Assembly: GCF_007115095.1 (NCBI RefSeq)
Contig: NZ_SULH01000011.1
Coordinates: 1-64,000 of the forward strand
Length of the DNA: 64,000 nucleotides
Source: Levilactobacillus enshiensis
GTDB taxonomy: Bacteria; Bacillota; Bacilli; Lactobacillales; Lactobacillaceae
Direction: 5' to 3'
The notes below the pieces were generated by a model that ran no database searches, was not told where the DNA came from, and was given only the letters and a program-made list of their open reading frames with translations. The translations under genes and the position numbers were made by a program. Positions 15,276-62,411 of the stretch are shown one piece after another. How positions within the stretch are numbered: the first letter of the stretch is position 1; each line of letters begins with the position of its first letter.

Positions 15276-15474
15276 CTAAAGGTTGAAAGACGAAATACTC
15301 GTTCCGGTATCGGTAAGTATTTGCGTCGTTAAATTAGTCTAATTTGAGTGCGCTCCGGCCGGCTACTGTGGGGACGCTTCAGCCTGGCAGAACACCAGTC
15401 TGCTCGCTTGCTTTGAGGCCACGAAAACCACGTGCCGCCCAAACGTCAACTAACACCACTTTTGCGGTTTCCAG
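15276..15474 (-). repeat. truncated reverse-oriented copy of the dispersed element (copy 3)
   Basis: It begins with CTAAAGGTTGAAAG, the reverse complement of the right end of the element at 23855-24372, and continues with clear similarity in reverse orientation. For example, GACGCTTCAGCCTGG and AGAACACCAGTCTGCTCGCT match the complement of 24223-24260. Near 15450-15474 it matches a part present only in the longer copy at 41126-41713. It ends abruptly about 70 bases before msrA. It fills the gap between aspS and msrA; no gene is supported there. Confidence 0.75.
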
Positions 15475-23854: not shown

Positions 23855-24372
23855 CTAAAGGTTGAAACTGCCAAAGCACCGCTCATACCTGTTTTGCCAA
23901 CAACAGTTGCTCTAAAAGTAGGCGACACAGGGGTTAAGTCGCCTTACCGGCCGGCAGATATGAGCTGGATCGGTGTGAACACAATTTGAAGCCTCGCAAA
24001 CCACGAGTCTACTAAGCCAGTAAGCAGATCACTTACTGACTAAGTAGAACGACGCGCCTGAACTCATATCTGCTGACCTCTCGGCTTACATTGTGTTCTC
24101 AGACAACTCTGAGAATAATCGTAACGGTTGGTTGTTATCAGTTGAATTCAAAAATGCCAGGTAGCTGTGGTTTACAGCCGTTGTCGTGATAAAACACAGG
24201 GAGGCCAGGGATGGCCCCAGCCGAGCGAGAAGACTGGTGTTCTTCCAGGCTGAAGCGTTCCCACGGCAGGCGGAATCCCTGGCAGCCGTCCTGCGCCAAC
24301 TTGGACTAGTTTAACGGTACGAAAGCTTACCATTACAGAGATGGGGCCTGAATTTTATCTTTCAACCTTTAG
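23855..24372 (+). repeat. dispersed non-coding element with terminal inverted repeats (copy 1)
   Basis: A 518-bp element bounded by the perfect 13-bp inverted repeat CTAAAGGTTGAAA ... TTTCAACCTTTAG. It is closely similar to 41126-41713 throughout and to a reversed fragment at 15276-15474. No reading frame is shared between copies, so it is probably non-coding. Internal paired segments include CAGATATGAG/CTCATATCTG (23955, 24063), CTACTAAGCCAGTAAG/CTTACTGACTAAGTAG (24009, 24032), GAACACAAT/ATTGTGTTC (23977, 24090) and TTCTCAG/CTGAGAA (24095-24114). It fills the whole gap between two divergent promoters. No clear target duplication is visible. I do not recognise a named family; MITE-like is the best description. 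Confidence 0.85.
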
Positions 24373-36309: not shown

Positions 36310-36352
36310 AATCAGTTTTTTCAGACTTGTTTCTGAAAAAGCTGATTTTATT
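36310..36352. terminator. terminator after glyS
   Basis: AAAATCAGTTTTTTCAGA / TCTGAAAAAGCTGATTTT, an 18-bp stem with one mismatch, followed by ATTTTG. The right arm is part of palindromic repeat copy B. Confidence 0.85.
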
Positions 36353-36445
36353 TTGCCATCATCGTGTCGAAACGTGCGCCACCAGGCAGTTTGTTGCCCT
36401 TAACGTGAGCAAAATAACCGCCTAATGGCGCTCACTTTTCTACGT
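36333..36445. repeat. palindromic dispersed repeat, copy B
   Basis: Closely matches 105-274 except that the central 18-bp hairpin of copy A is missing. Palindrome arms: GTGCGCCACCAGGC (36374-36389 region) and GCCTAATGGCGCTCAC (36420-36435). The outer shared segments CTGAAAAAGCTGA and TACGT mark the ends. It lies between glyS and a membrane-protein gene. Apart from this and the terminator nothing is seen in 36257-36551. Confidence 0.75.
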
Positions 36446-40606: not shown

Positions 40607-41125
40607 ATGAAAGCCAAACCCAGCTTAGAACAGGCGCTGTGTATCGTTGCCTTACTTGGAATTCAGGATCGAGAGGTTCCGTTGCACGGTCGTTTAATTG
40701 CGAAGCACTTGGGAATTTCTACGAGTTACCTGAAAAAAATTGTACAAAAGTTGGCCAGTGCACAGATCGTTAAGACGATTTCGGGCCGAAATGGGGGAAT
40801 CGTCTTGATGAGAGATCCCAATCAAATTACCTTGCTCGATGTCTTCGATGCCATCGAAGGAACCGTGCCGTTCGTCAAGAATACCGGGCTCGTCAAAAAG
40901 ATCTTCGGCTTTGATCAAAAGCCAAAATTCATGAAAATGTATGATCTGCCTGATTTAAAGGACCAACAGCCGATTGCCAATGCGCTGGCCGTTTTTGGCG
41001 ATGCGGAACAGCGCTATCGTCAGGAACTGGCCACCCTCTCAATCGGTCAGATTTCACCCCTTTCAGCGGGTCACCCCCTCCAACTGGACTGGACCGCATG
41101 GATTAGGCAACATTCAGTAGAATAG
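40607..41125 (+). CDS. Rrf2 family transcriptional regulator
   Basis: A 172-residue winged-helix regulator. The N-terminal 80 residues carry the Rrf2 signature (HGRLIAKHLGISTSYLKKIVQKL then GRNGGIVLMRDPNQITLLDVFDAIEG). Unlike IscR or NsrR it lacks the three-Cys cluster after the wing, having only one Cys near the start (LCIVALL), so iron-sulfur sensing is unlikely. Excellent AAAGGAGAT site before the ATG. It probably controls the MMPL exporter downstream, but repeat copy 2 now lies between them. Its last codons are duplicated at the far end of that element. Confidence 0.92.
   Translation: MKAKPSLEQALCIVALLGIQDREVPLHGRLIAKHLGISTSYLKKIVQKLASAQIVKTISGRNGGIVLMRDPNQITLLDVFDAIEGTVPFVKNTGLVKKIFGFDQKPKFMKMYDLPDLKDQQPIANALAVFGDAEQRYRQELATLSIGQISPLSAGHPLQLDWTAWIRQHSVE
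41109..41125 (+). repeat. 17-bp direct repeat flanking element copy 2, left
   Basis: AACATTCAGTAGAATAG, including the stop codon of the Rrf2 gene. An identical copy is at 41705-41721. This arrangement suggests a target-site or recombination duplication. Confidence 0.85.
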
Positions 41126-41713
41126 CTAAAGGTTGAAAGTCCCAAAGTATGGCTCATGCCGGTTTTGGCAACAACGGTGATCCTAAAACTGGGCAACTTA
41201 GTGGTTGAGTCGCCTTACCGGCCGGCAGATATGAGCTGGAACGGTGCGAACACAACTTGAAGCCTCGAAGAACACGAGTCTACAAGCTTGGTTTTCTACT
41301 AAGCCAGTAAGCAGACCACTTACTAACTAAGTAGAACGACGCGCCTGAGCTCATATCTGCCGACTTCTCGGCTTACATTGTGTTCTCAGACAACTCTGAG
41401 AATAACCGTAACGGTCGTTATCAATTGAATTCCAAAATACCAGGTAGCTGTGACCTACAGCCGTTGTCTTGATAAAAAATCGTCAGCATCGGCGGAGGCT
41501 AGGGATGGCCCCAGCCGTGAAAGTGGTGTAAGTTGGCGACAAATTATCAGCTGGCTTACAGCACGGGCGACTTTGGCGACATGTGGCTTCCAGTCTGAAG
41601 CGTTCCCACAGCAGCCGGAATCCCTGACGGCCTGCACCCAATTAGCCTAATTTAACGGTGTAACTGCTTACCCATACTGAGATGAGACCTGAATTTTATC
41701 TTTTAACATTCAG
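41126..41713 (+). repeat. dispersed non-coding element with terminal inverted repeats (copy 2)
   Basis: A 588-bp element homologous to 23855-24372 over its whole length, with two insertions (about 16 bp near 41283 and a longer one near 41522-41590). Left end CTAAAGGTTGAAAG; right end CTTTTAACATTCAG is a diverged version of the same terminal repeat. The same internal paired segments are preserved, including the hairpin CTACTAAGCCAGTAAG/CTTACTAACTAAGTAG. Reading frames of about 60 codons inside are not shared with copy 1 and are taken as spurious. It separates the Rrf2 gene from its likely target. Confidence 0.85.
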
Positions 41714-41721
41714 TAGAATAG
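41705..41721 (+). repeat. 17-bp direct repeat flanking element copy 2, right
   Basis: Identical to 41109-41125. Its first nine bases coincide with the diverged right terminal repeat of the element. Confidence 0.85.
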
Positions 41722-62231: not shown

Positions 62232-62254
62232 AAACATGTAATAAAATTTAGGTC

Positions 62255-62368
62255 CATCTTCAAGGCAGGGTGCAATTCCCGACCGGCGGTAAAGTCCGCA
62301 ACCCGTGAGAGCGGTTGATTCGGTGCAACTCCGAAACCGACAGTATAGTCTGGTATGCAGAAGATGAG
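62255..62368 (+). promoter_or_regulatory. FMN riboswitch (RFN element)
   Basis: The conserved RFN core is intact: CAAGGCAGGGTGCAATTCCC, GACCGGCGGTAAAGTCCGC, AACCCGTGAGAGC, a variable arm with GATTCGGTGCAACTCCGAAACCGACAG, and the closing P1 strand GAAGATG pairing with CATCTT. With FMN bound, the downstream terminator would form and reduce ribU expression. Confidence 0.96.
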
Positions 62369-62411
62369 ATGTTGCTTTTTGCGTAGGTGTCATTTTAAAG
62401 TACGTAAATTC

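Follow-up and report, generated by a model that had tools for sequence, protein, structure and literature searches.

A small mobile element of food lactobacilli with the ends of a sister-species insertion sequence and, inside, apparently undescribed folded repeat units

The repeated non-coding DNA described here belongs to food lactobacilli and is a small transposable element; its ends recur on an insertion sequence (IS) of a sister species. Very probably, the whole can be explained as an IS4-type MITE with a captured pair of folded units. The units occur in many Lactobacillaceae genera and appear to be undescribed. Our tentative view is that the ~140-nt unit may be a functional structured nucleic acid of Lactobacillaceae, probably RNA, that is present many times per genome, often in divergent pairs, is selected for its fold in place and has been spread by carriers that differ between genera, including the IS4-type MITE.

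IS-paired MITEs and structured intergenic repeats are both already known kinds; what is new, as far as the searches reach, is their combination here, together with the size, the arrangement in pairs and the spread. The units would make up a genome-wide folded repeat set in several lactobacillus genera that lies outside Rfam, with more than 100 of them in each of three deeply scored genomes. The identified IS makes mobilisation directly testable, and with a covariation model of 136 positions any genome can be scanned for the units and their number obtained. Should the units act as RNA, they would constitute a large and overlooked structured RNA class. If they act as DNA, they would be a multi-helix counterpart of REP sequences.

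The element and its copies

The window, that is, the whole stretch of 64,000 nucleotides that was analysed, belongs to a Levilactobacillus draft genome of 3.07 Mb in 57 contigs (here, the source genome). It contains the following features of the element.

23855–24372, plus strand: full element, an internally deleted copy of 518 nt (pairwise match, genome BLAST, copy comparison)
23855–23867, plus strand: left terminal inverted repeat, CTAAAGGTTGAAA (sequence)
24360–24372, minus strand: right terminal inverted repeat, plus-strand reading TTTCAACCTTTAG (sequence)
23951–24073, minus strand: predicted structured unit A (left half, inverted), a weak covariance-model match (18.4 bits, E 0.012)
24161–24273, plus strand: predicted structured unit B (right half), partly deleted (covariance model, 32.5 bits, E 6e-6)
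41126–41713, plus strand: second copy of the element, 588 nt (BLAST)
41118–41125, no strand: left target duplication of the second copy, TAGAATAG, containing the stop codon of an Rrf2-type gene
41714–41721, no strand: right target duplication of the second copy, TAGAATAG (matching empty site in a related genome)
41232–41348, minus strand: predicted structured unit A of the second copy (covariance model, E 4e-9)
41511–41618, plus strand: predicted structured unit B of the second copy (covariance model, E 2e-11)
15276–15420, minus strand: third, partial copy, a right end with the terminal repeat CTAAAGGTTGAAAG at 15276–15289 and a unit match at 15359–15465

A sequence-only reading of this DNA had proposed that 23855–24372 and 41126–41713 are one element, with perfect termini in the first and no reading frame in common, and that the window holds a third occurrence. 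Indeed, the two copies are 74% identical over their full length (E 1e-114), the termini CTAAAGGTTGAAA / TTTCAACCTTTAG are perfect, neither full copy contains an ORF of 80 aa or more, and the third occurrence is the partial right end on the minus strand. Two of its proposals have to be qualified. The 13-bp termini are real, but they form the best-preserved outer parts of an inverted duplication that has diverged and extends over the whole element. Similarly, the extent of 23855–24372 is real, yet this copy is itself an internally deleted version of a longer consensus (629 nt in the profile); other copies have a 16-nt loop and, in the right-hand unit, ~110 nt that are missing from it. Its flanks, ACAAT and TTAAC, contain no recognisable target duplication and, judging from mechanical ORFs, it lies between divergent genes and not at gene ends. 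The second copy has a degenerate right end, CTTTTAACATTCAG.

The expectation that the genome would carry many copies was borne out. BLAST of 23855–24372 against the source genome yields 75 matching pieces that merge into 40 loci. The terminal 14-mer, with no more than one mismatch, is found at 66 places, compared with 3 for a reversed control pattern. Through this terminal repeat 40 further loci were fetched, 37 of which contain element sequence, many in truncated form, which brings the source genome to at least 77 loci where the element is present in full or in part. Duplicate loci (L041–L044 and L081) were dropped, and one locus with a right end only (L036) was left out of the profile. Across the genus, an element match is present in 32 of 35 genomes and the exact sequence CTAAAGGTTGAAAG in 23 of the 35, while the reversed control scores 0 in each of the 35. 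Some copies are short and internally deleted but retain both ends, such as L104, 180 bp long and flanked by an 8-bp duplication that is exact, and L182, which is 275 bp long. The copies compared within the source genome are at most 92% alike; the corresponding figures are 95% for L. koreensis loci and 98.7% for L. fujinensis loci.

Carriage of the element by phages or plasmids was considered and gave no match in plasmids (four queries), phages (two queries) or viral contigs (one pattern). As for an occurrence outside Lactobacillaceae, the titles of three among the 95 pattern hits pointed elsewhere, and none of these three matched the element profile. A second core, of the type TCAAAGCGAGGTC...GCGTTCC...GGTGAACGGTAAGGC, is seen by eye between the same kind of terminal repeats: near position 533 of L205, at the right ends of L034 and L021, and at L306:900-1480. 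There are apparent hybrids of this core with the first, and it was read, again by eye, as a related second family.

Insertion sites and the transposase partner

Target duplications were counted in 50 end-pairs from several species, each end having at most three mismatches and the pair at most five in all; the 50 include several cases in which the ends of one copy are paired in more than one way. An exact duplication of 7 or 8 bp accompanies 21 of them, where ~0.4 would be expected. When the two lengths are taken separately, exact 7-mers flank 14 pairs and exact 8-mers flank seven, against expectations of 0.3 and 0.1 from re-paired flanks. The remaining 29 pairs lack an exact 7- or 8-bp duplication, and among the 50 there is no excess at lengths of 5, 6 or 9 to 12 apart from a single pair at each of the lengths 5 and 6.

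The insertion at 41126–41713 has an empty counterpart. In a related genome (L378), the sequences that flank the second copy are joined, with a single copy of the target, which there reads CAGAATAG; neither an element match nor a unit match is found at that locus. Another species (L377) has an element in the same gap and in the same orientation to the genes. This insertion lies 14 bp further on and is flanked by its own 6-bp repeat, AACAAT, and is therefore independent. Weak element remnants occupy the gap in L380 and L379 (23.6 and 10.2 bits). Overall, this gap between the Rrf2-type and MMPL genes (L376–L380) is empty in one species, contains independent insertions in two and weak remnants in two more.

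The probable source of the mobility was traced through a relative in which eight contigs end 54–56 nt away from where this terminal repeat begins. These breaks suggested that the repeat also bounds a longer repeated element. Its inner sequence led to transposase fragments, these to a protein search (match in 15 of 35 genomes, several of them weak or partial), and the search to a complete IS in L. koreensis (L278:1417-2975). This IS is 1559 bp long and has perfect CTAAAGGTTGAAAG at both ends. It is flanked by an 8-bp target duplication, CTGATTAA, and, as judged by eye, preceded by a terminator. A transposase gene with matching termini, which had been named beforehand as the thing to look for, is thus present in a sister species.

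The 450-aa transposase of this IS matches NCBIfam NF049925 (IS4 family) with 470 bits against a cut-off of 250, and also matches Pfam DDE domains; no solved structure was matched by its sequence. It has a YREK motif, YARRWQIEGYFKVAK, at residue 329 and DDE spacers of 106 and 114. Table 1 of PMC2266710 gives the ISPepr1 subgroup as 1500-1600 bp long, with direct repeats of 7-8 bp and ends of the form YT-AA-YTT---A, and the motifs listed in that paper are Y(2)R(3)E(6)K and D(60-110)D(100-150)E. The ends of the L. koreensis IS, CTAAAGGTTGAAA, agree with the end consensus at seven of eight conserved positions, the seventh being G instead of Y. With this one departure among the end bases, the IS would fit the ISPepr1 subgroup by its size, duplication length and YREK motif. 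The main text of PMC2266710 contains no hit for 'mite' or 'lactobac'; the partner reported here is from L. koreensis.

A divergent IS4-type element (L281, L291), whose ends are different, was set aside. It is found in four genomes (L281, L282, L283 and L291, in G031, G020, G034 and G006) with the same neighbouring gene sequence, and is 53–59% identical to the query fragment. In one further genome (G030), L290 and 13 other places contain a 440-aa frame with weak transposase similarity (26% identity across 68 residues); this may be an insertion sequence of a different type that is present in many copies. Among the element loci inspected, there was no long copy with a transposase inside that led to the partner.

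The element thus has the terminal inverted repeats, target duplications, lack of coding capacity and partner with the same ends by which a MITE is recognised. Its copies, duplications, empty site and the IS with the same 14-bp ends uphold the earlier suggestion of a MITE-like, non-autonomous mobile element. An interior derived by deletion from an autonomous parent, which is a classical but not an obligatory feature of MITEs, is not seen. Indeed, only the outer 14–23 bp of the IS and the element align, all other matches being of 18 nt or less with E values of 0.1 or worse. This indicates that the interior was captured and is not left over from the IS.

We propose that a non-coding, non-autonomous transposon of ~630 nt, shortened in places by internal deletion, was most likely cut and pasted in trans by an IS4-family transposase of the ISPepr1 type acting on the CTAAAGGTTGAAAG ends. 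The L. koreensis transposase, or a lost relative of it, probably was the enzyme that moved the element. Each insertion would duplicate 7–8 bp, most commonly between convergent genes and often near a gene end or terminator. Homologous folded units A and B would have been captured into the interior from a repeat family that is spread through the Lactobacillaceae.

In the source genome (a draft of 57 contigs), no transposase match was found, so the element there would be a MITE that is probably immobile now. Because the compared copies are, in addition, no more than 92% alike, current movement is unlikely, and the element is probably inactive in this genome; its connection with the L. koreensis partner is accordingly an indirect one.

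The folded units and their spread

The left half of the element aligns along its length with the reverse complement of the right half. The local score is 137, compared with a shuffle mean of ~60 ± 8, and none of 300 shuffles scored as high. Moreover, a covariance model built from right-half-type units only finds the left half of the second window copy on the opposite strand. On these alignments, the interior is a divergent inverted pair of homologous, predicted folded units with a spacer between them; unit A lies on the minus strand and unit B on the plus strand.

The units measure ~110–140 nt and would contain several helices, with pairing within each unit and not between the halves. The alignment from which the covariance model was built (A1) was made of 43 hand-chosen units, 31 belonging to the genus and 12 to three others, after 72 of 316 hits had passed a diversity filter. 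In this alignment, 29 of 38 base pairs are doubly compensated, compared with 15.5 ± 2.0 in shuffles and at most 17 with slid partners. The proportion of paired cells is 96.0%, and falls to 34.5–42.9% when the partners are slid. A covariation set of 155 A units and 116 B units, from which identical units and those with more than 20% gaps were dropped, was ranked by mutual information. Predicted pairs account for eight of the ten strongest column pairs in the B units and six of ten in the A units, in a ranking that is not fully blind because the structure was drawn from the same alignments. As read from these compensatory changes, the predicted multi-helix structure is kept by selection.

Conservation in 38 copies of the source genome is 0.946 and 0.922 for the two units and 0.828 for the spacer. 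Unit A exceeds the spacer in 31 of 37 copies and unit B in 22 of 29. Units in copies with decayed ends are about as well conserved as those in copies whose ends are good, at 0.934 against 0.950 for A (p 0.14) and 0.925 against 0.927 for B (p 0.8), which suggests selection in place, in a test that is biased toward conserved units by the finding of copies through similarity to the core.

Pairing asymmetry bears on the nature of the folded strand. Unit B has 235 G-U cells to 96 A-C cells, whereas the count by column is only 34 to 19 (p 0.053). Unit A, taken in the same sense as B (the minus strand of the window), has 177 cells to 99 and 20 columns to 23, and the 43-unit set has 65 cells to 29 and 15 columns to 12. 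This leans toward an RNA that would be read outward from the centre of the element. With respect to the initial description as a mobile structured RNA, the strong interior covariation sustains the structured part; the preference for RNA over a folded single DNA strand does not receive the same support.

Units are by no means confined to the element. At E ≤0.001, the unit model matches at least 121 of 397 sampled Lactobacillaceae genomes, in 13 of 40 genera, and these family-wide counts are minima because eight candidates were scored per genome under strict filters. In an order-wide sample, 12 of 295 genomes match the model and all are Lactobacillaceae. Deeper scoring of 150 candidates per genome gave at least 124 unit matches in the source genome and at least 140 and at least 150 in two other genomes.

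Close neighbours among the 124 matches of the source genome are arranged (-,+) 27 times and (-,-) three times, never (+,+) or (+,-). In a genome of another genus (G342), all six close neighbours are (-,+) among the 107 hits listed. The unit pair there has other ends, GCCGCCTCC / GGAGGCGGC, and no target duplication was seen among the seven end-pairs listed, so that in at least one other genus the unit family would be carried within different ends. In one other genus (L306), the ends are nearly the same, TTAAAGGTTGAAA / TTTCAACCTTTAG, with an exact duplication, CCCTATAA, and, by eye, a different second half. Taken together, the 13-genus spread, this locus and the other ends of the G342 pair indicate that the unit family is wider than the MITE and probably older. 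A replication-strand rule for unit orientation was not supported, its two-arc contrast of 35 being reached in 29 of 500 shuffles (one genome, 107 hits listed).

Possible roles of the units and relation to known repeats

By analogy with ERIC and Correia/NEMIS, the folded units may act as transcribed RNA near the 3' ends of genes, where they could affect transcript stability or processing. This is the most likely reading and is put forward tentatively.

Next in likelihood, although on balance doubtful, is that the units act as folded single-stranded DNA, to which a protein responsible for copying or spreading them would bind. In one form of this model, which we hold to be rather unlikely, the units are REP-like hairpins of single-stranded DNA that an HUH enzyme, or another enzyme acting on single strands, would have spread; their capture between IS4-type ends would then be limited to Levilactobacillus and one or more other genera. 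The divergent pairs in two genera (six of six in G342, 27 of 30 in the source genome), the other ends of the G342 pair, with no duplication seen among its seven listed end-pairs, and the weakness of the G-U strand bias all agree with it. Yet the ends and duplications in Levilactobacillus indicate a DDE transposase. REP sequences and REPINs also have a tetranucleotide tag and a RAYT transposase. They are described as palindromes of 20–40 bp (PMC3733652), from which the units differ in architecture as well as in size, being far larger and composed of several helices.

The transcribed-RNA reading places the units near gene ends, and the same placement might suggest that the elements are host regulatory or terminator-like modules, their mobility being secondary. 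We regard this as improbable. Both neighbours could be identified, from mechanical ORFs, for 70 copies; the neighbours of 37 are convergent, many copies lie within 100 nt of an ORF end, and several, as judged by eye from their flanks, directly follow a terminator. However, selection against harmful insertions would leave the same placement, no T-run was seen after the units, and occupancy varies by species, as illustrated by the gap of the second copy, empty in one relative and independently filled 14 bp further on in another.

Least probable of all is a functionless interior, folded because inverted repeats fold anyway and conserved through recent common descent or gene conversion: an old inverted duplication, as the halves represent, does make palindromes, and copies within one genome are related, so that inherited single changes are counted many times, but the pairing lies inside the units, the double compensations extend over the 31 genus units and the 12 from other genera, and the units are better conserved than the spacer, about equally so with decayed ends, in the 38 copies subject to the core-similarity bias.

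No earlier description of the element or unit was found in the literature search. A survey of stem-loop repeats in 40 genomes mentions Lactobacillus once in its text, for L. johnsonii (PMC2267715). One close counterpart of the element is RUP of Streptococcus pneumoniae, in the account of PMC2229807: a small non-coding repeat with a target duplication and with ends that match the IS thought to move it (IS630-Spn1). RUP belongs to a class of ~100–200 bp repeats and has 9-bp terminal repeats, TA targets and an IS630-type partner (PMC2229807), whereas the present element measures ~630 nt, duplicates 7–8 bp of target, has its partner in the IS4 family and encloses a structured interior of foreign origin. 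The bcr1–bcr18 repeats of the Bacillus cereus group resemble the units in being interspersed and intergenic, some of them MITE-like and some structured and transcribed (PMC3446304, PMC2267715). In these sources bcr1 is 147–167 nt long and reported as specific to one species group; the units, in contrast, occur in 13 genera, as head-to-head pairs, and inside identified IS ends. ERIC and Correia/NEMIS are likewise structured MITEs for which roles in mRNA stability or RNase III processing have been proposed, but they are described as stem-loops of ~100–155 bp with TA ends, neither a multi-branched unit nor an inverted pair (PMC2229807). Finally, the CIR repeats of Caulobacter and Brucella share two structured arms and a linker with the element, but they have simple long arms and other hosts, and no terminal inverted repeat is listed for them in PMC2229807.

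For the element and its units, Rfam 15 gave no family at its own cut-off, with the window, the element and 15 further loci as queries. Two matches below the cut-off were judged to be due to chance: mir-5615 over the unit A hairpin in three loci (at most 27 bits, cut-off 82) and V_AS7 in L018 (54.2 bits, cut-off 90), the latter outside the element. Neither at the Rfam cut-offs nor in the literature search, then, did an already named IS-derived MITE match, and the original interpretation from the letters of the DNA is supported overall.

Two other features of the window may be recorded. A direct repeat of 64 nt, 86% identical, is found at 121–184 and 36346–36409, and an FMN riboswitch (103.7 bits) lies at 62252–62369.
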